Below are positions 2,771-55,511 of a DNA stretch of 64,000 nucleotides, one piece after another. Source of the DNA: Ignavibacteriota bacterium. GTDB taxonomy: Bacteria > Bacteroidota > Ignavibacteria > SZUA-365. The stretch is taken from positions 175,182-239,181 of the forward strand of contig JACRFB010000059.1 of NCBI GenBank assembly GCA_016218045.1, written 5' to 3'. The notes under the pieces were generated by a model, which did no database searches, was not told the DNA's origin, and worked only from the letters and a program-made list of their open reading frames with translations. Both the position numbers and the translations under genes were made by a program. The stretch's first letter is position 1, and every line of letters begins with the position of its first letter.

Positions 2771-3070
2771 GAGGAGTAGTAAGTAGTTGGTAGATAGTAG
2801 ATCGGTCTACTCTGTCCGCGTCAGGAGACAGGATACAGGAGGAAGGAGACACAGATTGTTTCAATGCCTGTCTCCTGTCTCCATTCTCCTGTATCCTCAC
2901 ACGAGCATAAGGAGACAGGATACAGGAGGCAGGAGACACGAATTGTGTCGATGCCTGTCTCCTGTCTCCTTTTTCCTGTATCCTCACACGAGCGTAAGGA
3001 GACAGGATACAGGAGGAAGGAGACACGAATTGTGTCGATGCCTGTCTCCTGTATCCTCACACGAGCATAA
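2771..3070. repeat. Heptamer repeats (RGTAGWT family) plus three tandem 87-bp palindromic units (GGAGACA family)
   Basis: A short array of GTAGAT/GTAGTT-type heptamers (about 2776-2810) is followed by three direct copies of a palindromic unit at 2824-2910, 2911-2997 and 2998-3070; the last is about 14 nt shorter. Each unit opens with four in-register heptamers (GGAGACA, GGATACA, GGAGGAA, GGAGACA), crosses a core of about 17 nt (ATTGTGTCGATGCC), then returns as reverse-complement heptamers (TGTCTCC, TGTATCC) and ends CACACGAGCRTAA. Each can fold into a long hairpin. No gene lies within. Confidence 0.9.
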
Positions 3071-3082
3071 CCCGGTAACAAC

Positions 3083-4183
3083 ATGACACGAACATTGATG
3101 ATCCTGGTTCTCCTGTGCGGCACACCTGCACTTCCTGTGTTTGCACAAGTGACAGTGGCGGTATATAACGACGAGGGCGCGTGGAGCGACGGCATCACCG
3201 CCTTCGAAAAGTTTCTGGATTGGAAGGGCCTTACCCACCAACGGGTGAGCGCGGCCGACATCAACACAACAGCGCTCGATGGTACGTACAAGGTTGTATA
3301 TTTTCCCGGGGGCTATGCGTACGACTATAAGCGCAAACTCACGGCGCGGGGGGAACAGCACATCCGTGATTTCGTAAACAACGGCGGCGCGTATATCGGG
3401 ATATGCGCGGGCGCATTTTTTGCCGCGGACCGTGTGGATTGGGAGGGCGGATCGTATCCCTACACGCTGGGCCTGTTCAAGGGCACGGCGCGCGGAGCCC
3501 TGGATGTGATCACACCCTGGCCGGGTTGGGCAATGACATCGATCACCATGAGGCCGGACCATCCGATCACCGCAGGCAGGCGGTCGTCGTATACAACGCT
3601 CTACTACGGCGGACCCTCCTTCCATCCCGCCAGCGGCACACTGATCGACACACTCGCCACGTGGGACGCCGATGCCGCGTCACCCGCCATCATCACATTG
3701 ACATACGGCAGCGGACGCGTGTTGCTTATCGGCCCGCATCCCGAGATCGAGGAGAACGACACACGCGACGGAACGGCCTTCGCCAGCGACCTGACCGACC
3801 CCGAGTCGGAATGGGGGATGCTGTGGACATCGATGGACTGGCTATTACAACGTCCTATCAGCGATACAACGGTGACCGGCATTGAAGCGGGCGCGGAACC
3901 AACCACGCCGGACGTCATCACCGTCTTTCCGAATCCCGCGGGGGCGTCCGCGACTGTCACACTCACGCAGCGTGTAACAACGACGGGGCGTCTCAGTCTC
4001 GTCGACGCGCTGGGACGTGAATGTATGGTGCTTCACGATGGTCCGGTGCTTCAGGGGCCTGCACATTTCCGCGTATCCATGCGAACGCCGGACGGAACAG
4101 CACTGCCTGCGGGGGTGTATCACGTTGTGCTTCGTGTTGGTGACGGGGTACGAACGGCGCGTGTGGTAGTTGGTAGATGGTAG
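3083..4183 (+). CDS. BPL_N (glutamine-amidotransferase-like) secreted protein with T9SS sorting domain
   Basis: The product is 366 aa with an N-terminal signal peptide ending near VFAQ. Residues about 23-260 resemble the biotin-protein-ligase N-terminal-like (BPL_N) class I amidotransferase fold. They carry FPGGYAYDYK and GGAYIGICAGAFF, with the nucleophile-elbow cysteine near residue 108. The C-terminal ~85 residues (VFPNPAG at the start, LPAGVYHVVLRVGD near the end) are a T9SS sorting domain. The final residues VVVGRW and the stop codon are encoded inside a GGTAGAT/GGTAGTT heptamer array, so the native C-terminus may have been overwritten. Direct copies of the same repeat module lie on both sides. 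Its substrate is unknown. Confidence 0.75.
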   Translation: MTRTLMILVLLCGTPALPVFAQVTVAVYNDEGAWSDGITAFEKFLDWKGLTHQRVSAADINTTALDGTYKVVYFPGGYAYDYKRKLTARGEQHIRDFVNNGGAYIGICAGAFFAADRVDWEGGSYPYTLGLFKGTARGALDVITPWPGWAMTSITMRPDHPITAGRRSSYTTLYYGGPSFHPASGTLIDTLATWDADAASPAIITLTYGSGRVLLIGPHPEIEENDTRDGTAFASDLTDPESEWGMLWTSMDWLLQRPISDTTVTGIEAGAEPTTPDVITVFPNPAGASATVTLTQRVTTTGRLSLVDALGRECMVLHDGPVLQGPAHFRVSMRTPDGTALPAGVYHVVLRVGDGVRTARVVVGRW

Positions 4184-4605
4184 TTAGTAGATAGTAGATC
4201 GGTCTACTGTGCCCCAGTGAGGAGACAGGAGACAGGAGACAGGAGACACGGATTGTTTCGATGCCTGTCTCCTGTCTCCTTCCTCCTGTATCCTCACACG
4301 AGCGTAAGGAGACAGAATACAGGAGGAAGGAGGCCATCGAGTCAAGGCCTGTCTCCTGTCTCCTTCCTCCTGTGTCCTCACGGGAGTGTGAGGACCGCAG
4401 GGAGTTTTGGTGGCGCTGAATGCAACCGGGTCGGTTACACAACTCCCCCTTCCCCCTCTTAAAAAGAGGGGGTTGTCCGATAATATTTTCAAACACGCGA
4501 CTCCTGTCTCCTTCCTCCTGTATCCTCACACTCCTTGAATAGATCGATCTACCCATCTACCAACTACCATCTACCACCTACCACTTACCATCTACCAACC
4601 ACCCT
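4164..4605. repeat. Nested palindromic repeat block
   Basis: The outer arms are heptamers of the TGGTAGT/TAGTAGA family: five in register at 4164-4198, inverted at about 4545-4605. Inside are GGAGACA-family units; 4221-4248 has four exact GGAGACA copies, and inverted TGTCTCC/TGTATCC arms follow at 4265-4295, 4350-4380 and 4502-4530. The core holds a 9-bp hairpin (CCCCCTCTT at 4452-4460 against AAGAGGGGG at 4464-4472) with no T-run. The left arm begins inside the upstream coding sequence and includes its stop codon. There is no gene in the block. Confidence 0.85.
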
Positions 4606-4649
4606 CGCCCTACGTGGAACGTTCCCAGACGGAACGTATTTTACGCTCC

Positions 4650-5936: not shown

Positions 5937-5972
5937 AGATTGGGTGTTTCACGCGTCATTGCGTCGCACGGT

Positions 5973-6052
5973 GTAGCAAGGTAGCAAAGTGGTAAGGTAG
6001 CAACGTGGAATGTCGCCATCTTTTACTTTGCCACCTTGCTACTTTGCTACAC
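5973..6052. repeat. Octamer repeat palindrome (GTAGCAAR family)
   Basis: Five in-register octamers (GTAGCAAG, GTAGCAAA, GTGGTAAG, GTAGCAAC, GTGGAATG; 5973-6012) are followed by the inverted arm (ACTTTGCC, ACCTTGCT, ACTTTGCT; to 6052). This forms a hairpin-capable element directly upstream of gatB. The same family recurs at 12.7-12.9 kb, 14.87 and 15.36 kb, and 30.34-30.44 kb. Confidence 0.85.
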
Positions 6053-6114
6053 GACTTGTCACGTTCACACGTGGAACGTTCAAACTGACCGGCATTGATC
6101 CGTATATTGACGCT

Positions 6115-8749: not shown

Positions 8750-8751
8750 TC

Positions 8752-10592: not shown

Positions 10593-10595
10593 GGA

Positions 10596-10805
10596 GAAGC
10601 TAGAATTCAGAAGCTAGAATTCAGAATTCAGAATCCAGAATCCAGAATCCAGAATTCAGAATATCTACGATCAACGAGCATCGTGGGGATGGTACGTGTG
10701 CCGGGCGGAACAATCGTTAGACGGGCGTTACCGCAATGCGAATCACACTGCATTCTCGAATGTGATATTCTGGATTCTGAATTCTGGATTCTGGATTCTA
10801 GCTTC
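10596..10805. repeat. Heptamer repeat palindrome (GAATYCA family)
   Basis: The left arm is ten in-register heptamers from 10596 to 10665 (GAAGCTA, GAATTCA, GAATCCA types). A core of about 100 bp without a gene follows, then the inverted arm (TGGATTC/TGAATTC units) at about 10765-10805. The same family occurs around the S23-type gene at 43.4-43.8 kb, as an ORF-less copy at 46.25-46.40 kb, and as a single stretch inside the coding sequence at 22529-22551. Confidence 0.9.
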
Positions 10806-10870
10806 TTCTTTCGCGACGTTTCCGTTTCGACGGCGTGTCGCGTACTTTGTACCGACCATCATCCACACAC

Positions 10871-12655: not shown

Positions 12656-12905
12656 CACGTAACACGTATCCACGTTACACGTTGCATGCAGGATGTAGCA
12701 AAGTGGAAAGTAGAACCGAGCGGTTTTTCTACTTTGCTACATTCAACGTTGAAAGTGGAAAGTAGCAAAGTGGAAAGTAGAACCGCGCGATTTTTCTACT
12801 TTGCTACATTCAACGTTGAAAGTTAAAAGTAGCAAAGTGGAAAGTAGAACCGCGCGATTTTTCCACCTTGCTACTTTGCTACCTTCTACGTTGAACGTGT
12901 AACGT
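12656..12905. repeat. Mixed octamer palindromes (ACACGTAA and GTAGCAAR families)
   Basis: Immediately after the phosphatase stop come ACACGTA/CCACGTT units (12656-12690). Three successive GTAGCAAAG/AAAGTAGAA hairpins follow, with inverted TTCTACTTTGCTAC arms and the perfect palindrome TTCAACGTTGAA between them. CCGCGCGATTTTT recurs at the hairpin turns. ACGTGTAACGTGTAACG closes the block. There is no gene; it lies between convergent genes and may terminate transcription in both directions. Confidence 0.85.
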
Positions 12906-12914
12906 GTAACGTCA

Positions 12915-14261: not shown

Positions 14262-14313
14262 TTTCACTTCTCTCATTGCTGTAGTCACTTTTTCGGAATC
14301 CTATCGCGTGTGT

Positions 14314-14484
14314 GGGAAGGGGCAAGGGGGAAGGGGGAAGAGAGAAGAGAGAAGGGGGAAGAGGGAAGAGAGAAGGGGGAAGAGGTAGAGGATGAAAGAA
14401 CTGTTCGATTATCGATTCACTCCATTTACCCCATTCACTCCATTTACCCCATTTACCCCATTCACCCCATTTACTCCATTTACA
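14314..14484. repeat. Heptamer array (GGGGAAG family) and nonamer array (CCATTYACY family)
   Basis: Positions 14314-14383 hold ten in-register heptamers of the type GRGAAGR. Positions 14422-14484 hold seven in-register nonamers (CCATTTACC, CCATTCACT and similar). On the minus strand the nonamer array begins inside the last codons of the PqqD-like gene and provides its TAA stop. Confidence 0.9.
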
Positions 14485-14865: not shown

Positions 14866-15392
14866 GTGCAAAGTGGAAAGTAGCAAGGTGGAAAGTACCA
14901 GTGGGAATGTGCATGACTGGAACGATGATCAGGATCGGGAACAAACGGAACCCGACATGCGTACAAGGGCGGGAGGGAGGCATGTACGCAAGGCAATTTG
15001 AGGAATTGGATGTGTGGCGCAATGCGCGGACGCTCTGCACGGCTATCATCGCAGTATCCCAACGTGGTCGATTTCGAGCGGATGATGTATTACGCAAACA
15101 GATCTACCGCGCGGCACTGTCGATAGTGTCGAATATCGCGGAAGGCTTCGAGAGCAGAACCATCGGGCTCAATCGCGAATTTCTCGGCCGGGCAAAGGGT
15201 TCAGCGGGAGAAGTTCGCGCACAATTGCATATCGCACGGGATCTTGGGTACCTGGACGATTCTGTTTATGCCGAACTTCTTGCGAAGGTTCGCCACTGCA
15301 GCGCTCAACTGCAGCGATACATGGCCCGTTTGCACTGAGACATATTGCTGCATGCGCACCTTGCTACTTTCCCACCTTGCTACTTTCCCACT
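14866..15392 (+). mobile_element. Putative cassette: S23-type gene between inverted octamer-repeat arms
   Basis: The left arm (about 14866-14900: AAAGTGGAAAGTAGCAAGG, then TGGAAAGTA) and the right arm (about 15357-15391: CACCTTGCTACTTTCCCACC, then TTGCTACTTTCCCAC) are near-perfect inverted copies of the GTAGCAAR family. They enclose one gene, the four-helix-bundle protein. The same arms occur without a gene at several places in the window. No target-site duplication is obvious. Calling it mobile is inference from the arrangement, which is repeated at 43.4-43.8 kb with a different arm family. Confidence 0.45.
14982..15338 (+). CDS. Four-helix-bundle protein (23S rRNA intervening-sequence/S23 family)
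   Basis: The product is 118 aa from ATG 14982, preceded by GGGAGGGAGG. The sequence shows the family pattern FEELDVWRNARTLCTAI, then IYRAALSIVSNIAEGFESR, and GSAGEVRAQLHIARDLGYL. These are the hallmarks of the S23/IVP four-helix-bundle family (TIGR02436), first known from ORFs within 23S rRNA intervening sequences and related in fold to Avd of diversity-generating retroelements. The biochemical role of stand-alone members is unknown. The gene is flanked by inverted octamer repeats. Confidence 0.85.
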   Translation: MYARQFEELDVWRNARTLCTAIIAVSQRGRFRADDVLRKQIYRAALSIVSNIAEGFESRTIGLNREFLGRAKGSAGEVRAQLHIARDLGYLDDSVYAELLAKVRHCSAQLQRYMARLH

Positions 15393-18331: not shown

Positions 18332-19281
18332 GTTGTGTATCCTGCGTTCGTGGGTGTCATGGAATGTGCCTGCCGCTGCGCTTCGGCTTCGAAACGATGA
18401 TCCTGCGCCCAGCGCAGTTTGCGGCGCAGCATGTCGTAGTAGGTGGGTCCGACGTCCTTGATGAGCCGCAGCGACTTTGATCCGCGGCGCACGGTAAGTG
18501 TGACGGACGCGCTGGCTTCGCGCGCCGTCTGCCCGTCGGCCATCACGAGCACGCCGCCGTCGACCGTTGCAGCATGCAGGAATAGGTGGCTCGATGCGGG
18601 AAGAATGATGGGACGCGCGGTGAGCGTGTGCGGGCTGATGGGACTCACAACCAGCACGTCGCTGGACGGCACCACGATGGGTCCGCCCGTCGCCAGTGAA
18701 TACGCGGTCGAACCCGTGGGTGTCGCGATGATGATGCCGTCGGCGTAATACGTGGCGAGGAAGGCGCCGTCGACGTAGGCCTCGACGCGTATCACGCGGG
18801 CCGAGCCCGACTTGGAGACCACAACGTCGTTGAGCGCGTGGTGGCGGTCGCGGTCGCCGTCGAGCAAGGCCGTGAGTGTCATGCGTTTTTCGATACGGTA
18901 CTCGCCGCGTAACACGCGGTCCACCGCGGCGATGGCATCGTCGGCGTCGATGTCGGCGAGAAATCCGAGCTTGCCGAGATTCACGCCGAGTATGGGTGTG
19001 TCGGATCCGCGGGCTTCACGCGCGGCGGCGAGCAGTGTGCCGTCGCCGCCATACGTGACGATGAAGCGTGCATCGCGCGCGATGTCGGCTCGATCCGCGA
19101 TTTGTGGAATACGCACACGCGCCTCGCGCGCTGCGGGAGCGAGCAGCGCCGCCACCTCGGTCTCGACCACGGCGGGCACACGCTTGCGCGCGAGAAAGCG
19201 CAGCAGCGGCAGCACGGCCGACAAGGCCGACGGCTTGGTCACATTGGCAAGAATGCCGACAGGGCGCGATTCAGCGGTCAT
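18328..19281 (-). CDS. nadK: NAD kinase
   Basis: The product is 317 aa. It shows the ATP-NAD kinase signatures: GGDG at residues 78-81 (VTYGGDGTLL), LGVNLGKLGFLADI, the LND motif (HHALNDVVV) and the glycine-rich ADGIIIATPTGSTAYSLATG. The enzyme phosphorylates NAD to NADP in the cytoplasm. The C-terminus is extended by about 25 residues beyond the usual core. It precedes and overlaps the thioredoxin-like gene by 4 nt. Confidence 0.95.
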   Translation of the reverse strand: MTAESRPVGILANVTKPSALSAVLPLLRFLARKRVPAVVETEVAALLAPAAREARVRIPQIADRADIARDARFIVTYGGDGTLLAAAREARGSDTPILGVNLGKLGFLADIDADDAIAAVDRVLRGEYRIEKRMTLTALLDGDRDRHHALNDVVVSKSGSARVIRVEAYVDGAFLATYYADGIIIATPTGSTAYSLATGGPIVVPSSDVLVVSPISPHTLTARPIILPASSHLFLHAATVDGGVLVMADGQTAREASASVTLTVRRGSKSLRLIKDVGPTYYDMLRRKLRWAQDHRFEAEAQRQAHSMTPTNAGYTT

Positions 19282-21716: not shown

Positions 21717-22413
21717 CACCCGCGGCCATCTGCGCCTCGTACTCTTCGACATCGACGGCACGCTGCTCAGCACCAACGGCGTCGCCAAACAGACCTTCGC
21801 CGAAGCGGTCGACACCGTGTTCGGCCAACGCACCGTCGCGCGCGAGCACGACTTTGCGGGCAAGACCGACACGCAGATCTACCGTGAAATCCTCGTCGCC
21901 TCGGGTGTCGACGAGGAACTTATCCAGCAGCGCCAGGATGAAACGCTCGAGCTGTTCCTCGACATGCTCGAAAAACGTGTCACACCGGAATCGTTGACCG
22001 TGTTCCCCGGCGTACGCGAACTGCTCGATACACTGAACGAGGAGACGGTCACCACCATCGGACTGCTCACAGGAAATGTGATACGCGGCGCGCGTATCAA
22101 ACTCGGTCCCGCCGGACTCGGGTCGTATTTCACTTTCGGCGCCTTCGGCAGCGACGCCTACCACCGCCAGGATCTGCCCTCCATCGCGATAGAACGCGCG
22201 TATCATCGCACGGGCTACGTCTTTCGCGAGAAGGAGGTCGTGATTGTCGGCGACACGCCGCACGACATTTCCTGCGGCCGCCACCTCAACGTGCGCACCA
22301 TCGCCGTCGCCACCGGGAAATCGTCGGAGGCCGACCTCGCCCCGCACAATCCCGACTATCTGTTCGCGGATCTGTCCGACACGGCCGCCGTGCTCGAAGC
22401 CATCATCGAATAA
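21703..22413 (+). CDS. HAD-superfamily phosphatase
   Basis: The product is 236 aa. Motif I is LVLFDIDGTLL (D16, D18), motif II is in TTIGLLTGN, and motif IV is VVIVGDTPHDISCGR; the cap (residues 25-90) is helical C1 type. It resembles phosphoglycolate/pyrophosphatase-like HAD enzymes. It starts inside the end of the SDR gene and is followed 16 nt later by the T9SS lectin-like gene, so a shared transcript is likely. Confidence 0.85.
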   Translation: MTKHNTRGHLRLVLFDIDGTLLSTNGVAKQTFAEAVDTVFGQRTVAREHDFAGKTDTQIYREILVASGVDEELIQQRQDETLELFLDMLEKRVTPESLTVFPGVRELLDTLNEETVTTIGLLTGNVIRGARIKLGPAGLGSYFTFGAFGSDAYHRQDLPSIAIERAYHRTGYVFREKEVVIVGDTPHDISCGRHLNVRTIAVATGKSSEADLAPHNPDYLFADLSDTAAVLEAIIE

Positions 22414-22429
22414 GGGCGGGAGTGATACC

Positions 22430-24596: not shown

Positions 24597-24886
24597 CGGT
24601 AAAGGCGTAAAGGGCGTAAAGGGGTAAAGGGGTAAAGGCGTAAAGGGGGAAAGGCGTAAAGGGGTAAAGGGGTAAAGGCGTAAAGGGGTAAAGGGGTAAA
24701 GGCGTAAAGGGGTAAAGGGGTAAAGGGGTAAAGTAGTCGTTCGCTCAGCGTGGATACGAAACTCCGTGTGTTGTATCATGGAATGCAGTGATACAACACA
24801 CGGATTCGTCTCGGACCGTTTTCGGGAGGAGCCGAACTAGATCCTAGCTCCTAGATCCTAGCTCCTAGACCTAGACCTAGCTCCTC
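24597..24886. repeat. Octamer array (GNGTAAAG family) and TAGGAGC-family heptamers
   Basis: Positions 24597-24733 hold about 17 in-register octamers (GGGTAAAG, GCGTAAAG), with one unit lengthened by a base. About 100 bp without a gene follows; it includes an inverted ACACGGAGT..CACGGATT and TTGTATCA/TGATACAA pair near 24760-24800. Positions 24838-24886 carry CCTAGCT/CCTAGAT heptamers. The whole 311-bp gap between convergent genes is repeat or non-coding. Confidence 0.85.
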
Positions 24887-30294: not shown

Positions 30295-30482
30295 TGATAC
30301 ACGTTACACGTTGCCACGTAACACGTATCCACGTGCTGTAACAAAGTGGCAAAGTAGCAAAGTAGAACGCTGCGAGCCGCGTTCTTTTACTTTGCTACTT
30401 TGCTACTTTGCTACCTTCCTACTTTTCCACCTTGCTACTTTCAACAACAACGTGTCACGTGGATACGTGTAACGTGGCACGT
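30295..30482. repeat. Nested palindrome of ACACGTAA and GTAGCAAR families
   Basis: Outer arms of ACACGTT/CCACGTA units (30297-30337 and, inverted, 30447-30482) enclose GTAGCAAAG octamers and their inverted partner (CTACTTTG repeated, 30388-30440). The nesting order is the same as at 12.66-12.91 kb. It fills most of the gap between the M6 gene and the isocitrate dehydrogenase terminator. Confidence 0.85.
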
Positions 30483-31720: not shown

Positions 31721-32608
31721 GTGGCTCAATCCTCTGTTTGATATATGGGGGTGGGGTGTGCCGAAGAGAGTCATGCAAGATACGAGGACCGGCATTGAAA
31801 TCAGAGCACAACACCAGCCCCTTCCGCCAAGAACCGCCTTCACCGCCTTCACCCCTTCACCCTTTCTCGCACTCCGCATCGCCATATCAAAGAGCCAGTT
31901 CGGCACGTGACGGACAAAACGGGTAGCCCACACGATAGGCCAGGGGAATTGTACAACACGTCGTCTTCTCTCGATACGCCGGCGTATGATACGCGCAGCA
32001 CGTGCGGGTTCCAGCAGGAAAGGCATGTGGAATTCATTGCGCGCCGTCATGTCGGTGCGCACAAAGCCGGGACGGATGGTCACGATACGAATGCCCTTCG
32101 GGCGAAGCTCCACGCGGGCGGATTCGAGCAGGGCGCTCGCCGCGGCCTTGCTCGCACAGTACGCGGCCGAACCCGGATATCCGCGCGCGTCGGCCAGACT
32201 CGACACTCCCGCGATGATGCCGCCGCCCTGCGAGCGCAACAGCGGGACAAAACTTTCGAGTCCGTGCGCGAGGCCCTGCACATTGACGTCCATCACATCG
32301 CGGAACTCCGCGCTGTCGAAATCTTCCATCCACGCCGGAACACCGATGCCCGCGTTGAGTATCACAAGCTCCACATGCCCGAGGCATTTTTTCGAGTACA
32401 CCGCGGCCGCCCGCATCTGTTCGCGGTCGCGCACGTCGCAGCGCTGGTAATACGCCGTGCCTCCCGCGGCCTTGATTTCATGGGCAAGCGTGCGTATGGC
32501 ATCCACATCCCGCGCAAGCAGTACCACGGCCGCGCCGTGCTGTGCGTACTCGCGGGCAAGAGCCCTTCCGATCCCGCGTGACGCGCCGGTTATCACGATG
32601 GTCGACAT
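30536..32608 (-). CDS. Short-chain dehydrogenase running in frame into the isocitrate dehydrogenase
   Basis: From ATG 32608 (GAGG about 9 nt upstream) a 690-codon frame encodes an SDR (residues about 1-250: TGASRGIGRALARE, ILNAGIGVPAW, AAYCASKAAASALLESARVE). A linker of about 45 residues follows, then the complete 394-residue isocitrate dehydrogenase. The linker begins GEGVKAVKAVLGG, encoded by GGTGAAGG-type tandem units (31831-31868), so the SDR's own stop was probably lost when repeat sequence replaced its 3' end. Whether a true fusion protein is made, or the dehydrogenase is translated separately from 31720, is open. The SDR substrate is unknown. Confidence 0.7.
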   Translation of the reverse strand: MSTIVITGASRGIGRALAREYAQHGAAVVLLARDVDAIRTLAHEIKAAGGTAYYQRCDVRDREQMRAAAVYSKKCLGHVELVILNAGIGVPAWMEDFDSAEFRDVMDVNVQGLAHGLESFVPLLRSQGGGIIAGVSSLADARGYPGSAAYCASKAAASALLESARVELRPKGIRIVTIRPGFVRTDMTARNEFHMPFLLEPARAARIIRRRIERRRRVVQFPWPIVWATRFVRHVPNWLFDMAMRSARKGEGVKAVKAVLGGRGWCCALISMPVLVSCMTLFGTPHPHISNRGLSHMKRTIVAMPGDGIGKVVLPEAIRVLDAAGFDAEYVNGDIGWDFWCSEGNALPQRTIDLLAEHKIGLFGAITSKPKDKAAAELAPELHGKGFVYYSPIVTMRQHFDLDICLRPCKSFPGNPLNFIRKSAAGGFEEPVVDTAIFRQNTECLYAGVEWTNPPADVRAAFETHPRMKAFKNVPGEDLAISTRIFTRNACRRIVRAAFEHAKQYGYKNVTVCEKPNVIRETSGMMEAEAAIIAKEYPGIALWSTNIDAQMMWLTKNPEDYGVIVAGNMFGDIVSDGFAGLIGGLGFACSANIGREVAVFEPTHGSAPKYEKLDPSIVNPIAMIMSACMMLDHLGETAMSARITKAIADVVAEGKVRTYDMLKLTGGAGVFAKGAATTQQMTDAIIAKLG

Positions 32609-32630
32609 GTGTGGCTACCTCATTGTGAGT

Positions 32631-32850
32631 GGGACAGCGGGACAGCGGGACAGCGGGACAGCGGCCGAAGGCCGCAAGAAAATACCTCCGTTTCCTCCGT
32701 TCCTCCTGTGCGCCTTTTTTCTTCGCGCAACACACGATCCCGGGACACCGGGACAGCGGCCGAAGGCCGCAAGAAAAAACCTCCTTTCCTCCGTTCCTCC
32801 TGTGAGCTGTTTTTTTCGCGCAACACACGATCACGGGATTGCGGGACATG
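32631..32850. repeat. GGGACAGC octamers with two copies of a ~110-bp longer element
   Basis: Four GGGACAGC octamers (32631-32662) lead into GCGGCCGAAGGCCGC (a hairpin), CAAGAAAA, a CCTCCGTTTCCTCCG tract, a T-rich stretch and CGCGCAACACACGATC. The whole is repeated at about 32747-32845. An inverted third copy lies at about 50330-50425. The block separates two minus-strand genes and contains no gene. Confidence 0.85.
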
Positions 32851-33589: not shown

Positions 33590-33724
33590 TAGGAGCGAGG
33601 AGTTAGGAGCTAGTATCTAGGAGAAAAACAGCATGTATTCTGTGCCCTTGCTCGGCGCCTTAGGCGCCATCGAGTTCCATCTCCACTCATTATTCTAGAT
33701 CCTACCTCCTAGATACTCGCTCCT
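33590..33724. repeat. TAGGAGC-family heptamer palindrome
   Basis: The left arm (GGAGTTAGGAGCTAGTATCT, about 33596-33622) and inverted right arm (CTAGATCCTACCTCCTAGAT, then ACTCGCTCC, about 33694-33722) enclose a core of about 70 bp. The core includes GGCGCCTTAGGCGCC, itself a perfect hairpin. There is no gene. Confidence 0.85.
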
Positions 33725-33740
33725 TCAGCAATACCCAAAT

Positions 33741-34300: not shown

Positions 34301-34514
34301 TAGGAAGGAGCTAGGAGTTAGGAATTAGGAGCTAGGAGGTTGGAGTAAGGAATTAGGATCTAGGAGTGTGGAATCCGGTGCTGGAAAGAAAACAGCATTT
34401 AAATGTCTTGAAGCGTGCTCTATGATCCAAGCAACTACCTACTCCTTACTCCAACCTCCTAGATCCTAATTCCTAGATCCTCGCTCCTAGATCCTCGCTC
34501 CTATCTCCCAGCTC
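34301..34514. repeat. TAGGAGC-family heptamer palindrome, longest example
   Basis: Positions 34312-34374 contain nine consecutive in-register heptamers (TAGGAGT, TAGGAAT, TAGGAGC, TAGGAGG, TTGGAGT, AAGGAAT, TAGGATC, TAGGAGT, GTGGAAT). After a core of about 60 bp, the inverted arm (CCTAGAT/CCTAATT/CCTCGCT units) runs from about 34440 to 34514. It covers the last codons and stop of the neighbouring dehydratase-like gene. Confidence 0.92.
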
Positions 34515-35454
34515 CTAGTTCAACATTTCCCCCCGACAAAACCACCCCCACCCGCTTCCCCGCGAATTGGTCGGGATGAGAAAACACGGCGGCCAGTGGT
34601 ACAGCCGCCGAGGGTTCCACGACTATTTTCATACGTTGAAGTATCAGTTGCATCGCTTCGAGAATTGATGCCTCGTCCACTGTCAGTATCTGTTCGACGC
34701 GGTCGAGGATGATCGGGAAAGTCCGCTCGCCAAGAGAGGTGAGCAGACCGTCGGCAACGGTCACGGGATTGTTGGAGGGAATGATGTGGCCTGCCGCGAG
34801 CGATCTGCAGGCGTCATCGGCCGCGGCGGGTTCGGCGCCGAATACGCGGGTGCGCGGATTCACCTCTGTCACTGCGAGCGCCGTGCCTGCGAGCAATCCA
34901 CCGCCGCCCACAGGTGCAATGACGATGTCGAGTTCCGGTGCGTCCGCCAGCAGTTCCAGGGCCGCGGTGCCCTGTCCCGCAATGATGCGGGTGTCGTCGT
35001 AGGGATGGACGAGCACGCAGTGATGTTCGTCGATCAGAGCGGCCGTGGCCGCCTCGCGCGCGGCGAGCGTGGGTATACAATACGTGATGCGCGCGCCGTA
35101 CCCGGCAGTCGCCGCCTTTTTCACCGCGGGTGCGTTCGACGGCATGACGATGCGGGCCGTGATGCCGCGCAGCCGCGCAGCAAGAGCCAGTGCGCCCGCA
35201 TGATTGCCGCTGGAATGCGTCACGACACCGCGAGCCGCCTCCTCGTCGCGCAGTTGAAAGACGACGTTGGTCGCGCCGCGAAATTTGAAGGCGCCCGCCT
35301 TCTGAAAATTCTCGCACTTGAAATACAGCGACGCACCCGTACGCGCATCGAGCGACGCACACGTGAGTACCGGCGTGTGATGAGCATACGGCGCGATACG
35401 CGCGGCGGCGGCCTGAATGTCGGCCAATGTAACGCTGTGTGCAGAGGCGTCCAT
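34501..35454 (-). CDS. PLP-dependent threonine/serine dehydratase-like enzyme
   Basis: The product is 317 aa. YFKCENFQKAGAFKFRGA holds the PLP lysine (about K57), THSSGNHAGALALAA binds the substrate and phosphate, and VGGGGLLAGTALA is the tetraglycine loop. It has only the catalytic domain and no ACT regulatory domain, as in catabolic threonine ammonia-lyases and serine racemases. It would convert threonine or serine to 2-oxoacid and ammonia, or racemise serine. The C-terminus after LSGGNV reads ELGAGR plus stop and is encoded by TAGGAGC-family repeat sequence, probably replacing the original ending. Confidence 0.85.
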   Translation of the reverse strand: MDASAHSVTLADIQAAAARIAPYAHHTPVLTCASLDARTGASLYFKCENFQKAGAFKFRGATNVVFQLRDEEAARGVVTHSSGNHAGALALAARLRGITARIVMPSNAPAVKKAATAGYGARITYCIPTLAAREAATAALIDEHHCVLVHPYDDTRIIAGQGTAALELLADAPELDIVIAPVGGGGLLAGTALAVTEVNPRTRVFGAEPAAADDACRSLAAGHIIPSNNPVTVADGLLTSLGERTFPIILDRVEQILTVDEASILEAMQLILQRMKIVVEPSAAVPLAAVFSHPDQFAGKRVGVVLSGGNVELGAGR

Positions 35455-42339: not shown

Positions 42340-42472
42340 GTCGCACCTCAACAAGCTCGGTGTGACACCACTTTGTTGTCCCGCTCTCCCGCTGTCCCGC
42401 TGTCCCGCTGTCCTGCTCTCCCAGCTTCTATCTCCTACATCCTAGATCCTAAATCCTACTTCCAATCTCCTC
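42340..42472. repeat. GGGACAGC-family octamers and CCTAGAT heptamers
   Basis: A CTCAACAAGCTCGG palindrome-like tract (42348-42361) precedes five to six inverted GGGACAGC units (CCCGCTGT/CCCGCTCT, about 42375-42420). CCTAGATCCTAAATCCTA heptamers follow (42425-42470). The neighbouring 42200-42340 region holds the promoter side of the beta-helix gene and no gene of its own. Confidence 0.8.
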
Positions 42473-43370: not shown

Positions 43371-43382
43371 GGCGGCTGACGT

Positions 43383-43840
43383 GAGAATTCAGAATCCTGA
43401 ATCCAGAATTCAGAATGGTAATGAAGAAGGTCGTTTATTTGTCGTTTCGAAGTATTGTCGACATGTATGATTCGAGGAGTTTGCTGGTTTCTTCGAGAAG
43501 TTCCTTTGCAAGTGCAATCTCACTGTACCCGAGATCACGTGTGAGAATCAGAAAATACCGGCATTCTTCCAGTGAGCCCTGAGCGATATTGAGATATCGG
43601 ACTTTGTCCGCTTTCGAACGTTTCTTGAATCCCTCGGCGATGTTCGCCGGAATCGACGAGGATGCACGGCGTAATTGCGAACTCAGGCCGTATAGTTCCT
43701 CTTTGGGAAATAGACGCGTCATTCGATACACTTGGAGGACAAACGCATGCGCCTTTTGCCATACGATCAGATCCTCAAATGTTGTCGCTGGTTCTCGCAT
43801 CAATATTCTGGATTCTGAATTCTGGATTCTGGATTCTTCG
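43383..43840 (-). mobile_element. Putative cassette: S23-type gene between inverted GAATYCA-family arms
   Basis: The left arm at 43384-43415 (GAATTCAGAATCCTGAATCC, then AGAATTCAGAAT) and the right arm at 43803-43838 (TTCTGGATTCTGAATTCTGG, then ATTCTGGATTCTTC) are inverted copies. They enclose a single gene whose start codon directly follows the arm end CAGAATATTG. The same arm end occurs in the ORF-less copy at 46.25 kb. The cassette occupies the entire gap between flxB and flxA, 14 nt from one gene and 5 nt from the other. Mobility is inference. Confidence 0.5.
43435..43800 (-). CDS. Four-helix-bundle protein (S23/IVP family)
   Basis: The product is 121 aa from ATG 43800 (MREPATTFEDLIVWQKAHAF). 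The family pattern is plain: FEDLIVWQKAHAFVLQVYRM, then LYGLSSQLRRASSSIPANIA, EGFKKRSKADKVRYLNIAQG, and SLEECRYFLILTRDLGY. It differs clearly from the S23-type gene at 14982-15338. No Shine-Dalgarno sequence is visible, since the repeat arm abuts the start. Its position inside an operon of electron-transfer genes makes a metabolic role unlikely. Confidence 0.87.
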   Translation of the reverse strand: MREPATTFEDLIVWQKAHAFVLQVYRMTRLFPKEELYGLSSQLRRASSSIPANIAEGFKKRSKADKVRYLNIAQGSLEECRYFLILTRDLGYSEIALAKELLEETSKLLESYMSTILRNDK

Positions 43841-43843
43841 AGG

Positions 43844-46213: not shown

Positions 46214-46249
46214 TGTTGGTATTCTATAGTTCGTGTGGTCGGTTTCTTG

Positions 46250-46400
46250 GAGAATCCAGAATCCAGAATTCAGAATTCAGAATATTGGATCCGCAAACAT
46301 GCGGGATACGCATGTCCAGATGTACATCGTCATTTCAGATACAATCGACATCGTAGATGTTCTGACTTCTGGATTCTGGATTCTGGATTCTGAATTCTCT
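46250..46400. repeat. ORF-less GAATYCA-family palindrome
   Basis: The left arm (about 46252-46286: GAATCCAGAATCCAGAATTC, then AGAATTCAGAATATTG) and inverted right arm (about 46364-46399) enclose about 78 bp with no coding frame. The arms match those around the S23-type gene at 43.4-43.8 kb, including the inner end AGAATATTG. It sits between hdrA and flxD in the same gene set. Confidence 0.88.
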
Positions 46401-46405
46401 TTCTC

Positions 46406-50242: not shown

Positions 50243-50520
50243 GCTGTCCCGTCGTGCTTTCCCGCTTCGCGGGACTCAGCGTGACACTATTTCGTTGTTC
50301 CGCTCCCGCTGTCCCGCTCTCCCGCTGTCGCACCACAGAGTGTTGCACGAAGAAAACAGCACACAGGAGGAACGGAGGAAACGGAGGTTTTTTCTTGCGG
50401 CCTTCGGCCGCTCTCCCGCTGTCCCGCTGTCCGGTGTCCCGTCGCGCTTCGACAAGCTCAGCGAGACACTATTGCGTTGTCCCGCTGTCCCGCTCTCCCG
50501 CTGTCCCGCTCTCCCGTTCC
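50243..50520. repeat. GGGACAGC-family block with inverted copy of the ~110-bp element
   Basis: CCCGCTGT/CCCGCTCT octamers occur at about 50304-50332, 50410-50440 and 50480-50520. Between them lies an inverted copy of the element seen at 32.63-32.85 kb (CACAGGAGGAACGGAGGAAA to TGCGGCCTTCGGCCGC). CTTCGACAAGCTCAG at 50449-50463 is an imperfect palindrome; a sequence like it is common in environmental bacterial genomes. There is no gene. Confidence 0.8.
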
Positions 50521-51537: not shown

Positions 51538-51570
51538 CCCGGCACACACCGCAAACGATTGCATAGAACC

Positions 51571-51608
51571 AACGCCCCGCGGCACACTCCGCGGGGCGTT
51601 TCTTTTTT
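51571..51608 (+). terminator. Rho-independent terminator of the cold-shock gene
   Basis: AACGCCCCGCGG pairs with CCGCGGGGCGTT over a 6-nt loop (CACACT), followed by TTCTTTTTT. Confidence 0.92.
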
Positions 51609-51617
51609 CCCACGCCC

Positions 51618-51650
51618 GAAAAAAAACGCGCGACCCGAAGGCCGCGCGTT
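51618..51650 (-). terminator. Rho-independent terminator of the He_PIG T9SS gene
   Basis: On the minus strand ACGCGCGGCC pairs with GGGTCGCGCGT around TTCG, followed by a run of eight T. Confidence 0.88.
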
Positions 51651-51686
51651 CTGTATCGAAGGATGTACGCGGTGTGCGCCGGGGAA

Positions 51687-54035
51687 TCAGCGCACGATGT
51701 TGAACGGACGCGTCAATGTGACCGCGCCTGCGCGCAGCGTAACGTAGTACGCGCCCGCGGGCAGGGCCGCCGTCTCGAACATCGCGCGGTGTGTGCCCGC
51801 TTCAACGCTGTTGTTGATGACGGTCGACACCGTGCGGCCGGCCGCGTCGCTGATCGTCACAAGAAGTTGTGACGCGGAGGGGACGGTGTAATCGAAGGAC
51901 GCCGCGGCACTCGAAACAGAGACGGGATTCGGGTACACACTCGAAAGCGTAAAGCCCTGCTCCGACACGAGACCTTCCACACCCACCGGATCAGACACGT
52001 CGATGGTGAAGGCCTGGTCGGCCTTGCCCACAGGATTCGTAGCGGTGACGGTCACGTTGTGCCGGCCCTTCTGCCCTGTTACCGGAGTCCACGTGATCAG
52101 TCCGGTTGTGGGATTGACTATCAAACCCGTGGGCGCCACGGTCATGCTGAATGTGGGTGCGGGCTCGGCCTCGGCCGTCACCTGATAGCTGTACGGCTTG
52201 CCGATAGTGGCGGTGAAGACTTCCGTGCTGGTGATGCGCGGGCTTGCTTGGACAAAAAGGGCGTACGGGAATTCGACGCTACCGGCGGAATTACGCGCTT
52301 CGAGCGTGACGGCATTGCTGCCCCTGTCGTCTCGTGCCGGACTCCATGTAATGATGCCCAACACCGAATCTACACGCATGGTCGGCGGCCCGGATTTGAG
52401 GAAGAACCTTGGTGCGGGTGTGCCTGACGCGGTGATCGTGTCACGGAAGAGCTGTCCGGCAACGGCGATTATCCGCGGTGAGCGGGTGAACACCGGCAGT
52501 ATCGCCCCGCTGCCTACGGTGATCTTATACGTCTGCTCGTCTATACCGAGGCGGTTTTCCGCGCGGACCTTCACGTCCACCTGCCCCTCCGCCGTCGGGG
52601 TCCACGTGATAATCCCCGAGTTGGCATCGATCTTCATCGAAGGCGGAAACACTTGCAGCGAATACGTCGCCTGCGGATTGCCGAGCGACGACACCTGGTA
52701 CGTGTACGGAACGTTCACCGTGGCGGCGGTACGCGCCTGCGAGGTGATCTGCGGGCCGTATGCCACGGACTCGATCTTGAGTGTGAAACTCTGCACATCA
52801 CTGCCCACATCGTTTGTGGCGGTAATGCCCACGATGTGTTCGCCTACCTGCTGCGCTGTGGGCACCAGGGTCACCTGACCCGTCAGCGGATCGATGGTGA
52901 TACCCTGCAGCGATGCCTGCAATTTGAATGTCGGATCCGGACCGCCCGTCGCCGTCACATTATAAAAGTACGGTTCACCGGTGAGGGCCATACGTTTCGG
53001 GTACGACGTGATTTTCGGCGCGGTCGGATCGGCGACAACGATGGTGTAGCTCTGCCTGTCCGTTCCGTTTGTATTCATCGCCTCGATGGTCACCGACTGA
53101 TTCCCCTTGTCGGATGCGCCCGGGGTCCAGCGAATCGCTCCCGTGTTATGATCGATCGTCATCGACTGCGGACCTGTGACGATGCGGTACGTGGGCCGCG
53201 GATTACCCGACGCGTGCAGATCGTAGCGGTATTCCAGACCGACAAAACCCTTGGTCTTCGCCGCGGTCACAATCTTCGGCCACGGATTCGACGTGGCTGT
53301 GTCGGCGAACGCGGTCATATACAGATACGAGAAAATCGGTTTCTGCGTGCCGGACTCGACAAGTGTGCTGTCGAGTGTAGCAAGCTGCAGATCGCCGCCC
53401 GAGGTGTTCAGCATGATCACACGCGTTTTCTCGAGCGTGCGCGCAGGCAGTTCGTGGAAGTCGCCCGCGACGGTCACCGTGTTGTTGGTGCCGCCCGTGA
53501 GCGTAAATTCGACGGAGATAAAAAATTCCTTCGGAACAGTTTTGCCGTTGAAGACGATGGTGTTCCAGGCATTCTGCGCGATGGCCGTCGAGGGGATGAA
53601 CAGCGAATCGATGGCTGGTGAGAACTGCGGCACATAAAAAGTGGACGAACCAAAATTCGCCGGCACCGCGGGATATACACGGAACGACACCGATCCCGGC
53701 GTCAGCGCCGAAATAAACACCTGCATGGAATCGAGGAAGCCCGCGTTGTTCGGCAGCGTGAAGCGCTGGAACAGCATAAGGTTCATGAACGAACCGTAAT
53801 CGCGCGGCATCTGCCAGTTGAAGCGCGGCAGCGTGATATCGTGGTACTTCATGGCGACGGTTGTGCCGGCCGCGGGTGCGGGCGGCTGCGTGCCGAGCGG
53901 GGCCGCCATACGCGTCAACGGCGACGCTGCGGGCACGGCCGTGGGGACAGTCGCGACAGAATTCTCGATCCGTACCTGCGCGTACGCCGCGGAAGCCAGA
54001 AGGAAGACAACAAGCAATAAGTACGAACGCTTCAT
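51687..54035 (-). CDS. Secreted T9SS protein with tandem He_PIG (Ig-like) repeats
   Basis: The product is 782 aa from ATG 54035 (GGAG 6 nt upstream) with a signal peptide (YLLLVVFLLASAAYAQ). The N-terminal ~260 residues form a beta-rich domain. About five He_PIG repeats follow, each with the pattern P.Y.Y.V.A..NP.P.YSL...P..M.ID..TG.I.WTP. It ends in a T9SS sorting domain (LSSVYPNPVSVSSAAASFDY to LPAGAYYVTLRAG). He_PIG repeats occur in surface and adhesive proteins. No catalytic motif was found. Confidence 0.85.
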   Translation of the reverse strand: MKRSYLLLVVFLLASAAYAQVRIENSVATVPTAVPAASPLTRMAAPLGTQPPAPAAGTTVAMKYHDITLPRFNWQMPRDYGSFMNLMLFQRFTLPNNAGFLDSMQVFISALTPGSVSFRVYPAVPANFGSSTFYVPQFSPAIDSLFIPSTAIAQNAWNTIVFNGKTVPKEFFISVEFTLTGGTNNTVTVAGDFHELPARTLEKTRVIMLNTSGGDLQLATLDSTLVESGTQKPIFSYLYMTAFADTATSNPWPKIVTAAKTKGFVGLEYRYDLHASGNPRPTYRIVTGPQSMTIDHNTGAIRWTPGASDKGNQSVTIEAMNTNGTDRQSYTIVVADPTAPKITSYPKRMALTGEPYFYNVTATGGPDPTFKLQASLQGITIDPLTGQVTLVPTAQQVGEHIVGITATNDVGSDVQSFTLKIESVAYGPQITSQARTAATVNVPYTYQVSSLGNPQATYSLQVFPPSMKIDANSGIITWTPTAEGQVDVKVRAENRLGIDEQTYKITVGSGAILPVFTRSPRIIAVAGQLFRDTITASGTPAPRFFLKSGPPTMRVDSVLGIITWSPARDDRGSNAVTLEARNSAGSVEFPYALFVQASPRITSTEVFTATIGKPYSYQVTAEAEPAPTFSMTVAPTGLIVNPTTGLITWTPVTGQKGRHNVTVTATNPVGKADQAFTIDVSDPVGVEGLVSEQGFTLSSVYPNPVSVSSAAASFDYTVPSASQLLVTISDAAGRTVSTVINNSVEAGTHRAMFETAALPAGAYYVTLRAGAVTLTRPFNIVR

Positions 54036-54120
54036 GAGTCACTCCGGAATGAGAATGGGCGGGCGGGTGAAGAAAATGAAATTTGGATGCGCGCCTGGAA
54101 AAAAACAAGCGAGAGGCGTC

Positions 54121-54412
54121 GGGGAATGGGAACGGGGAACGGGGAACGGGGAACTGGGAACTGGGAACGAGAGGGGAAGAACGAAATTATCGGACCAGCA
54201 CATCTTTTAAAGAAACCGCCGGAAGGCGAACCTCGCGCAGGCAATGCTGAACGCACCGAGGAATTCCCGCTGTCCCGCTCTCCCGCTGTCCCGCTCTCCC
54301 GCTGTCCCGCTCTCCCGCTGTCCCGCTCTCCCGCTGTCCCGCTCTCCCTACTCCCAACTCCCCACTCCCTACTCCCAACTCCTAGCTCCCAGTTCCTAGC
54401 TTCTCTACCCAC
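54121..54412. repeat. GGGAACG heptamers, GGGACAGC octamers and TAGGAGC heptamers
   Basis: Positions 54121-54169 hold seven in-register heptamers (GGGGAAT, GGGAACG x3, GGGAACT x2, GGGAACG). Positions 54268-54349 hold about ten CCCGCTGT/CCCGCTCT octamers. Positions 54350-54412 hold inverted CTCCCAACTCC/CCTAGCTCC units that extend into the last codons of the following minus-strand gene. Confidence 0.88.
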
Positions 54413-55239
54413 AGCAGCTCCGGTTTTAATCCTCCGCAACGCTGGCGGCTGCTGGCCAGATTTTCGTCGGACATAAGCCAGAGCAGTTCGGGCATGATGG
54501 TGGAATAATGGCGCAACGTATCCAGCTCGATGTTGAACGCGCGGTCGACGGCATCGGAAAATCGTGCGCCCCCCGTCCATGTACGCAGAAAGGCGATCGG
54601 TGAGTACAAAGTAATATTATTGACGCCGGGTGCTCCTGACACGGCTGCGAGACCCGCAGTTTCCCAGGTTGCAATAGCAGTTGCCGCGTGACAACATGTC
54701 TGATAGAGAGCGCGGACGCCGAGCCGTTCGCGGCTGATAACCGCTGCCAGATCCGCAACAGCCGCCCTCCCATCACTGAACAGGAGAGTGGGACCATCGG
54801 AGTGCAGATCGAAGATCAGATCGACCGCGAGACCTCGCGACGACATCGCCCGGATGGAATCCAGCAGGATGCTGCTCCGCGCGCTGCCATCGGTCAGTGC
54901 GCAGAAGCTTGTGTAGCGTCCCTCAGCAACCTTTTCCAGTTCGCCGATCATCCACGGTTCGCCATACGCCTCGAGGATGTCGTTGAGCAACATGCCGCGC
55001 ATCGCCGCTGTATCCACTCCCAGAATTCCGCCGAGCACCTGCAGCACCTGCGGCCTCCGCATCTCAAACGCGAGTTCCAACGCCGATCCTCTCTCGCCGT
55101 CACTGTTCTCCACAACCGCGATGAGTCCGGCGGGACCGCAGGCATACACCACGGGTTCGCGTGGAGCAACCGGATCGTCACCGCCGCAACCAAGCAACAC
55201 AACAACGGTCAACAACAGCAGCACGGCAGTTGCTCGCAT
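54382..55239 (-). CDS. Lipoprotein of unknown function with a His/Cys pair
   Basis: The product is 285 aa from ATG 55239 with a near-perfect AAAGGAGG. A lipobox (VVLLGC) follows the signal. The middle region has DLIFDLHSDGPTLLF and, about 35 residues on, VRALYQTCCHAATAIATWET, then SGAPGVNNITLYSPIAFL. Histidine and cysteine at the ends of two predicted strands are arranged as in clan CD cysteine peptidases (caspase/gingipain/C11 fold), but overall similarity is weak and this is only a suggestion. The final KLGTGS and stop are encoded by TAGGAGC-family repeat sequence. Confidence 0.6.
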   Translation of the reverse strand: MRATAVLLLLTVVVLLGCGGDDPVAPREPVVYACGPAGLIAVVENSDGERGSALELAFEMRRPQVLQVLGGILGVDTAAMRGMLLNDILEAYGEPWMIGELEKVAEGRYTSFCALTDGSARSSILLDSIRAMSSRGLAVDLIFDLHSDGPTLLFSDGRAAVADLAAVISRERLGVRALYQTCCHAATAIATWETAGLAAVSGAPGVNNITLYSPIAFLRTWTGGARFSDAVDRAFNIELDTLRHYSTIMPELLWLMSDENLASSRQRCGGLKPELLWVEKLGTGS

Positions 55240-55274
55240 GAGACCTCCTTTGGAAAGAAAATGTAGAGGAAGAG

Positions 55275-55511
55275 ATGGGATCAGGCCGCTACGACCCGAA
55301 CGGCAAAAACTATCACGATCCGCTCACAGGGAAAAGGCGAAAGAACATCCGGTCCTGCCTTCGCACCAACGCCACCACCAACGAACAGATACCGCTTCCA
55401 CCACTTTACCCCTTTACCTCTTTACCCCTTTACCTCTTTACCCCTTTACCTCATTTCGCCAAGAAAAAAGTATCACGCGCTGATACCATTTCCGGCCATC
55501 AAATGCGGTAG
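55275..55511 (+). CDS. Possible small protein, C-terminal half of repeat origin
   Basis: A 78-codon frame begins ATG 55275 with AGAGGAAG just upstream. The first 28 residues (MGSGRYDPNGKNYHDPLTGK) look protein-like and basic-rich. From about codon 40 the frame crosses a CTTTACCC octamer array (55396-55453), giving LYPFTSLPLYLFTPLP, which is clearly repeat sequence. It could be a small gene whose end was overwritten, or chance. Confidence 0.25.
   Translation: MGSGRYDPNGKNYHDPLTGKRRKNIRSCLRTNATTNEQIPLPPLYPFTSLPLYLFTPLPHFAKKKVSRADTISGHQMR
55396..55453. repeat. CTTTACCC octamer array (inverse of the GNGTAAAG family)
   Basis: About seven in-register octamers (CTTTACCC, CTTTACCT), the inverse orientation of the 24.6-kb array. 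The remaining gap to cas3 (55454-55777) contains no gene I can support and presumably holds the cas promoter. Confidence 0.85.

Follow-up and report, generated by a model that had tools for sequence, protein, structure and literature searches.

What generates the short tandem arrays that crowd the gene gaps of one stretch of an Ignavibacteriota genome? The stretch, hereafter the window, is the final 64 kb of contig C59 of genome G000 (4.77 Mb, 99% complete). Heptameric short tandemly repeated repetitive (STRR) sequences are known from heterocystous cyanobacteria, and a first-pass annotation of the window had described many families of 7-, 8-, and 9-nt units built as inverted arms. It had implied one generating mechanism indifferent to unit sequence, and knew of no description of such a combination in a bacterium with a type IX secretion system (T9SS). 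From our computational analysis, we consider it likely that many of the window arrays are the arms of small, probably mobile elements with S23 (Pfam family PF05635, 23S_rRNA_IVP) as their sole gene, and that S23 probably binds the unit of its own arm.

S23 Genes Lie between Inverted Arrays of One Unit

A PF05635 profile search of G000 identified nine genes, eight of which have arrays of one unit on either side, with a different unit for each gene: AGAATYC, AGGAGAC, GAGGGAA, GTGAGAC, TTAGACGR, GGGACAGC, GTAGCAARGTGGAAA, and RTGAATGGG. Plain inverted arms are present at seven of these genes, including the nonamer-flanked gene L010, whose right arm is short; the eighth, L004, sits amid clusters of AGGAGAC hairpins. 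The ninth gene is a weak match within a 272-residue frame and has no flanking arrays.

Two of the eight array-flanked genes fall in the window. In the complete AGAATYC element, both arms form a closing stem (Table 1), and the S23 gene, at 366 bp, is equal in length to the genes of Nostoc, Trichormus, and Aulosira. The space between the arms holds S23 alone and leaves no room for a separate transposase, S23 itself not having been searched for a transposase fold. The second element has an inverted-arm score of 17, its arms being below the length needed for the lag scan described below. A 23S rRNA setting was not apparent, as four 23S signature motifs occurred in none of the loci shorter than 8 kb and no Rfam match was obtained in the window.

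The PF05635 search of 41 genomes (own, family, order, and class) yielded 140 S23 matches in 33 of them. For the arm test we took 58 of the 140: the nine of G000, 28 chosen automatically (about one per genome), and 21 picked by hand mainly to complete the same family, with L046 omitted as a duplicate of L064; five loci were then dropped for short flanks. Inverted arms scoring at least 13 were found at 43 of the remaining 53 loci, compared with 0.3% of 600 G000 places drawn at random with matching geometry and 1.4% of the 212 pairs obtained by exchanging flanks between loci.

Gene and Arms Are Present or Absent as One Block

Six plasmid sites exist in both filled and empty versions, with flanks 83–99.7% identical, filled gaps of 420–680 bp, and empty gaps of 0–40 bp. 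At site A, Trichormus and Scytonema carry 441 and 427 bp between the genes, while Fremyella, N. linckia, and Aulosira have an empty gap of 13 bp between flanks that are 97–99.7% identical. One Nostoc plasmid retains a decayed remnant with the left arm at this site, and the left arms of two copies whose flanks are nearly identical differ in length by 14 bp, equal to two units. At site B, three Nostoc plasmids are filled (420–602 bp) and four are empty (3 bp). The adjacent gap in the same gene row (site B2) is occupied in one plasmid by another S23 gene, whose arms are of the GGGAAAA type, and is empty in others. The remaining sites are the cmr2/cmr3 gap of Picosynechococcus 7003 versus 7002 (site C), the nrdB/nrdA gap of Nostoc edaphicum versus Calothrix (site D), and the cas6/cas4 gap of two Pseudanabaena (site E). 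No S23-type array occurs in the empty gap sequences examined for sites A to E. L105 (Brasilonema) and L107 (Nostoc C057) were too divergent at the site A/B gap to be scored as empty. At a chromosomal S23 locus in the window's class, the matching place measures just 150–160 bp or so in two genomes of the same genus; the arms of this locus are weak (score 11).

Gene and arms thus form a discrete block between genes. Insertion is favored because gaps between neighbors are only 0–13 bp, because several relatives are empty at sites A and B, and because the same element occurs at unrelated sites. Some of the empty gaps could nonetheless be losses. When two S23 elements at unrelated sites are compared, similarity is confined to the interval bounded by the outer edges of the two arms.

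Recent movement in one Calothrix strain with two S23 genes was considered and rejected, since both genes lie in a multi-gene stretch common to two plasmids. Separately, S23 elements occur inside CRISPR operons of cyanobacterial plasmids (L091, L093, and L240), once between cmr2 and cmr3 and in two lineages, with different arrays, between cas6 and cas4.

The Repeat Unit Follows the S23 Protein Sequence

S23 genes on Nostoc, Trichormus, Aulosira, and Scytonema plasmids that are 67–69% identical to the S23 of the window are flanked by the units CAGGAGT, CAGAAGT, and CAGAATT (CAGRAKT), near the window's CAGAATY. More generally, about 4% of unit pairs agree at 6 or more of 7 bases when protein identity is below 35%, compared with 28–38% at 60–70% identity and 65% at 70–80%. 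Over all pairs, protein identity and unit similarity are correlated (Mantel r 0.42, 0 of 999 permutations), and the same test on 45 loci of relatives that were not selected for similarity gave a Mantel r of 0.22 (0 of 999 permutations). For L009, the second S23 of the window, 17 of 28 loci of its clade have inverted arms, compared with 5% of swapped flanks, one of the 29 loci having been omitted for a short flank.

We also counted units per arm. With a weight matrix for heptamers with an AG[AG]A core, 104 arms gave five units in 40 cases, four in 19, three in 18, and six in 12. The solved S23 structures 2gsc and 2rld, which match the family with E values of 3e-33 and 7e-24, contain five chains apiece, and the title of the 2gsc paper, as cited in PMC10053308, describes a protein assembled from five four-helix bundles.

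S23 Elements Occur across Phyla

With the AGAATYC S23 protein of the window as query against named genomes, the best 80 of 562 relatives span about 20 phyla by record title. Inverted arms scoring at least 13 were present at 54 of these 80 loci, with a swapped-flank rate of 11% that is high because most of the 80 have one unit family in common. Among cyanobacterial plasmids, 11 of an initial 12 S23 loci had arrays on at least one side, as judged by eye. In a set of 147 loci, which includes nine of 13 cyanobacterial loci and omits the near-duplicates L087, L090, and L097 as well as the array-free L092, an array lies within 180 bp of S23 at 125. Its period is 7 in 91 cases, 8 in 16, 9 in 11, 6 in 4, and 10 in 3. 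Purines make up more than half of the inward-pointing strand at 115 of the 125. A search for phage S23 genes with two S23 queries gave no match.

These data alter two proposals of the first-pass annotation. They support one architecture, and probably one mechanism, behind the unit families, but not its independence of unit sequence, because the unit goes with the S23 protein sequence. Nor is the system peculiar to a T9SS bacterium, given that S23 relatives from about 20 phyla, among them the cyanobacteria, are flanked by heptamers with an AG[AG]A core like AGAATYC.

As a side observation, an S23 locus of G006 with CAGATTA arms has 56 matches listed in G011 and 21 in G002, both of the same genus; these are mostly short and lie in the arm stretches, some of them in flanking genes.

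Arrays Away from S23 Often Carry an S23 Unit

Arrays were detected with Tandem Repeats Finder (TRF; 73 rows, several rows for one array being common) and with our own lag scan at a score of at least 12. The lag scan found 34 arrays of period 6 to 9 in the window, compared with 0, 0, 0, 1, and 0 in five dinucleotide shuffles; examples from the two programs are 10616–10662, 14314–14385, 34306–34365, and 24599–24733. Two of the 34 (18840–18862 and 31833–31853) resemble coding repeats. By eye we read about eleven unit families in the window, and the majority of gene gaps longer than about 100 bp contain at least one array. The genes around the array-rich gaps are unrelated to each other and largely housekeeping.

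We then scanned 859 kb of G000 (18%), a non-random sample composed of contigs C1, C10, and C59 in order and of C7, C15, and C39 picked for a known S23 gene or array. It contains 107 arrays, compared with 4, 0, 1, 2, and 1 in shuffles. Neighboring arrays no more than 600 bp apart run from a purine to a pyrimidine arm in 21 cases and the reverse in one, with five purine-purine and 11 pyrimidine-pyrimidine pairs. Both arms share the same unit in 13 of the 21 purine-to-pyrimidine pairs, and all three same-unit arm pairs with a core longer than 300 bp enclose S23. Array density is uneven, with 34 arrays in the 64 kb of the window versus 73 in the other 795 kb (binomial P ∼2e-13).

Much of the first-pass description was therefore sound: arrays of period 7, 8, and 9 exist where it placed them, many unit families occupy most gaps, and the arm-core-inverted-arm layout is borne out. 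A lack of excess over shuffled sequence, set beforehand as one refuting outcome, was not what we saw: an excess was found for periods 7–9 in the 18% of the genome tested. The arrays were said to be genome-wide, and they do recur over the sampled 859 kb, although the window is a hot spot. Inverted-arm cores are likewise present, but two of the "cores" (14.9–15.4 kb and 43.4–43.8 kb) are overlooked S23 genes.

To compare arrays with S23 units, we defined a match as equal period with at most one mismatch and used as control eight units drawn randomly from foreign S23 loci (500 draws). In the 859 kb, 57 of the 107 arrays match one of the eight S23 units of G000 (12 variants; 56 with a single consensus), while foreign draws matched 20.5 on average and 38 at most. 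Excluding arrays closer than 700 bp to S23 leaves 93, and 43 of these match a unit of the genome's own S23 genes (foreign mean 14.6, maximum 32). In the window alone, the figure is 20 of 34 (21 with variants; foreign mean 9.3, maximum 18). With the chosen contigs C7, C15, and C39 left out, 38 of 84 arrays match. For six of the window's unit families, which number about eleven, G000 contains an S23 gene, and some units that lack one there adjoin S23 genes in other genomes. The octamer GGTAAAGG, for example, has no S23 gene among those found in G000 and one in a genome of the same family (L043, CGTAAAGG).

Two further observations concern clustering. In a second hot spot, L014 (41–50 kb of contig C1), a stretch of about 8.5 kb holds four S23 elements, no two of which share a unit. 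In the window, TRF revealed three stretches in which whole hairpins are tandemly amplified, those with 87- and 67-bp periods listed in Table 1 and one of 95 bp at 32646–32838.

Features of the Window

Table 1. Array and S23 features of the window, in window coordinates.
Feature	Position	Strand	Basis
Complete S23 element, AGAATYC arms	43384..43837	-	lag-scan arms; PF05635 E 4e-37; stem z -4.8
S23 gene (PF05635), 121 codons + stop, ATG placed by eye 4 bp off right arm	43435..43800	-	match 43477-43776 (C59:218658-218957)
Left arm, purine-rich, AGAATYC	43384..43416	+	lag scan
Right arm, inverted AGAATYC	43805..43837	-	lag scan
Second S23 element (L009), GTAGCAARGTGGAAA arms, gene ~14982-15338 (start by eye)	14868..15391	+	PF05635 15000-15314 (C59:190181-190495); TRF arms
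S23-less AGAATYC hairpin, core 76 bp	46251..46398	.	lag scan; RNA fold z -9.0
S23-less AGAATYC arm pair	10616..10806	.	lag scan and pair scan; folded piece is left arm only, z -0.3, not significant
AGGAGAC hairpins in tandem, 87-bp period, 2.7 copies; unit also flanks S23 gene L004	2823..3056	.	TRF, fold
Nested: AGGAGAC hairpins inside GTAGATR arms	4164..4603	.	lag scan
GTAGCAAG arrays (L009 unit)	5973..6050	.	TRF
GTAGCAAA hairpins in tandem, 67-bp period, 2.7 copies, L009 unit	12695..12874	.	TRF, fold
GRGAAGR purine arm (cf. GAGGGAA arms of S23 gene L005)	14314..14385	+	lag scan
RTGAATGGG nonamer pyrimidine arm (unit shared with S23 gene L010)	14412..14483	-	lag scan
GGTAAAGG octamer array	24599..24733	+	lag scan
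TAGGAGY arm	24837..24868	-	lag scan
GTAGCAAA hairpin within ACACGTR arms (30300-30482)	30338..30441	.	TRF, lag scan, fold
GGGACAGC octamer array (unit shared with S23 gene L008)	32628..32664	+	lag scan
TAGGAGY arm pair, degenerate	33590..33728	.	TRF
TAGGAGY arm pair, core 69 bp	34306..34521	.	lag scan, pair scan
GGGACAGC and TAGGAGY-like pyrimidine arms	42379..42458	-	lag scan
GGGACAGC pyrimidine arms	50304..50519	-	lag scan
GGGAACK purine arm; GGGACAGC/GGGAGAGC and GGGAGTR pyrimidine arms	54128..54399	.	lag scan
GGTAAAGG octamer pyrimidine arm	55400..55450	-	lag scan

Elsewhere in the window, the interval 55778–63991 contains a Type I-E CRISPR-Cas locus (Cas3, Cse1, and CT1975-like matches) and, after it, repeat-spacer arrays with a 61-bp period in TRF. 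Por_Secre_tail matches at 1468–2712, 22244–24577, 25945–30207, and 51690–54035, one above the Pfam cut-off and three below, fit a T9SS.

Discussion

Our reading is that the arrays belong to one class of mobile hairpin, as the arms of its full and its S23-less copies, and that this class is related to the S23-coding intervening sequences (IVS) of 23S rRNA. A full element comprises an arm, the S23 gene, and a second arm. In the S23 ring, which has five chains in 2gsc and 2rld alike, every subunit would bind about one unit. S23 would recognize the arms whether a copy is full or S23-less, the latter with a core of about 10–150 bp, and so drive or license the spread of both. Short-core hairpins such as 46251–46398 would then be S23-less copies that keep the S23-recognized arms, and slippage would lengthen or shorten arrays by whole units. 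In transcripts, a long stem formed by pairing of the two arms would enclose the S23 frame; the S23-coding 23S rRNA IVS have this arrangement and would be the rRNA-resident kin of this element class. S23 is the protein best tied to the elements by the present evidence, since the genome contains no RVT_1 match and, of its five Y1_Tnp matches, L083 has arrays that face opposite to S23 arms, two have arrays within about 1 kb, and two have none; it is not the sole candidate for the ACACGTR family. A broader proposal is that S23 represents a novel kind of mobility protein, a five-membered ring that reads short units and moves hairpins among operons, perhaps via the transcript, with the heptamers of cyanobacteria and Xanthomonas and the 23S IVS as products of this one element class; we put this forward tentatively and regard it as rather doubtful.

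Several observations weigh against the interpretation of the arrays as S23 element arms. In the sampled 859 kb, 50 of the 93 arrays away from S23 fit no S23 unit of G000, and 22 of the 147 S23 loci lack an array at threshold, as does Calothrix locus L092 outside that set. The S23 of a Picosynechococcus plasmid (L091), 65% identical to that of the window, is accompanied by the octamer GGAGATAA instead. In the L009 clade the unit is not conserved at 40–55% identity, a loss that the relation between identity and unit predicts. A target-site duplication of constant length was not evident, direct repeats of 4–6 bp being seen at the insert at sites A (GTAA) and B (TTCTA) and none clearly at the other four. 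We know of no catalytic site in S23. The number of units per arm is equivocal as well: a looser count of 123 arms gave four units in 40 and five in 36, and 84 arms of other clades gave four in 26 and five in 16. Four (17 of 93) and five (18 of 93) are also the commonest unit numbers of the G000 arrays away from S23 (median 5.4), so that the four-to-five peak is not proper to S23 arms; the detection threshold may contribute to it, and the five-unit argument is weak.

Two further objections concern distribution and orientation. Arrays away from S23 are almost absent elsewhere, with one in 160 kb of eight S23-bearing genomes and three in 203 kb of eight S23-free genomes. S23 alone is therefore insufficient to fill a genome with arrays, and we dropped the proposal that it does so, solo arrays being uncommon in the other S23-bearing genomes sampled; the dense state of the window is accordingly special and not shared by the rest of the genome or by the relatives. 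At 54 of 66 loci of the L003 clade, S23 runs in the direction of both neighbors, and at three it runs opposite to both; a further count of neighbor strands gave ++ at 22 loci, -- at five, +- at 12, and -+ at six, with 12 unusable; both counts use the longest open frame as a gene proxy, which is noisy in G+C-rich DNA. A symmetric DNA element would not show such a bias without selection, so that the bias counts against the element interpretation, and it hints at selection for read-through or at an RNA step.

The same bias, in that S23 is mostly co-directional with its neighbors, suits a different explanation, in which S23 acts as a regulator that binds RNA or DNA and has its operators in the arrays, those beside S23 serving self-control and the others a regulon, with no S23-driven movement. 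Such a regulator would also accommodate a unit that follows the S23 sequence, as well as cyanobacterial loci L086–L090, where the arm ends 2–3 bp ahead of the S23 start and an AGGAG motif occupies the position of a ribosome-binding site. It does not account well for inverted arms on both sides of the gene, for gain or loss of the gene and both arms as a single block, or for array-rich window gaps between unrelated, largely housekeeping genes, and we consider it unlikely. Replication slippage and recombination at purine-rich hairpins, with S23 genes as passengers that insert there by another route, would agree with the two-unit step at site A, with hairpins amplified in tandem at 67, 87, and 95 bp, and with the many arrays that have no S23 of their unit in G000. 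Passengers, however, would not have a unit that tracks their own protein sequence across phyla; inverted arms occur at 0.3% of random places versus 43 of 53 S23 genes, and the empty gaps of sites A to E hold no S23-type array. We regard this origin as very improbable.

Two routes through known enzymes have still less to recommend them. A Y1 transposase of the kind associated with repetitive extragenic palindromes (REP), a REP-associated tyrosine transposase (RAYT), might move some or all arrays: G000 has four Y1_Tnp genes above the cut-off (five matches in total), one of the four, L083 (contig C50), is flanked at each end by GTAGCAA- and ACGTG-type arrays beyond its own inverted REP repeats, arrays lie within about 1 kb of the matches L081 and L085, and the ACACGTR family has no S23 in G000. 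Yet the GTAGCAA stretches at L083 stand outside the REP repeats and face opposite to S23 arms (pyrimidine strand first), the Y1_Tnp pair L082/L084 has no arrays, and every same-unit arm pair with a core above 300 bp in the 859 kb encloses S23, leaving this route highly improbable. Least probable, and already disfavored, is a reverse-transcriptase route such as a diversity-generating retroelement (DGR), a retron, or telomerase-like addition of units. The sense-orientation bias of S23 would fit it, as would the structural kinship of the DGR accessory protein Avd with PF05635; the RVT_1 profile search of the 99%-complete genome gave no match.

The S23 elements resemble several known systems in part. 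REP sequences and bacterial interspersed mosaic elements (BIMEs) combine a gene-bearing copy, with a RAYT transposase between inverted repeats, and dispersed gene-less copies, an organization shared by the elements described here. They differ in that eight arm pairs enclose S23, not a Y1 transposase, and in that the arms consist of tandem units. In G000, REP-type inverted repeats resembling GGGCGACA are found at the Y1_Tnp matches L081, L083, and L085. STRR sequences are likewise intergenic head-to-tail heptamers with variable bases; octamers and nonamers occur here as well, and, unlike the STRR of heterocystous cyanobacteria, S23-linked heptamers occur in about 20 phyla among the best 80 of 562 relatives. 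The elements share with DGRs a related four-helix-bundle protein, Avd being a four-helix bundle related to PF05635 according to PMC10053308, and differ from them in that the genome has no reverse transcriptase (RVT_1).

A counterpart in gene content and form is the 23S rRNA IVS, which is excised from RNA by RNase III. PMC4990558 describes a 428-nt IVS with an S23 reading frame and a reported stem and terms it a selfish element. Common to both are S23 as the only gene (in full elements, not in short-core ones), terminal inverted repeats that form a stem, and a similar size; the elements here differ in that they sit in gaps between protein genes and have dispersed S23-less copies. The arms of the elements here are tandem arrays of a 6–10 bp unit that follows the S23 sequence. 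Heptamers have been described elsewhere: PMC4692102 reports GGGAATC and GGGGATT in Xanthomonas and Nostoc, with 70 and 75 inverted GGGAATC pairs in two genomes, and no general link of heptamers to mobile elements. The Nostoc S23 arms that we examined have AGTAGGG- and CAGGAGT-type units, with no GGGGATT or GGGAATC among them, and a plasmid search for a Xanthomonas counterpart gave no Xanthomonas record. For TAACTGA repeats, PMC4679880 raises the possibility that the mobile element is a protein that binds the repeat; the candidates it names are ribosomal protein S1 and the Csp and Csr families, and S23 is not among them. Neither of these two papers uses the terms S23 or four helix in its main text, and searches of an open-licence library, with subscription papers and preprints outside its scope, showed no link of S23 genes to tandem arrays.

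The association reported here joins intergenic heptamer-type repeats with the widespread genes annotated "four helix bundle / S23 ribosomal protein", whose role has been unexplained. The same kind of element in about 20 phyla would explain repeat families of hitherto unexplained origin, and S23 becomes a candidate binding protein for many of them, the tie between unit and protein amounting to a natural code with more than 100 pairs. If this interpretation is correct, S23 elements would add to the mobile elements a class for which neither a transposase nor a reverse transcriptase is known and which can enter gene gaps of 0–40 bp, including those within CRISPR operons.

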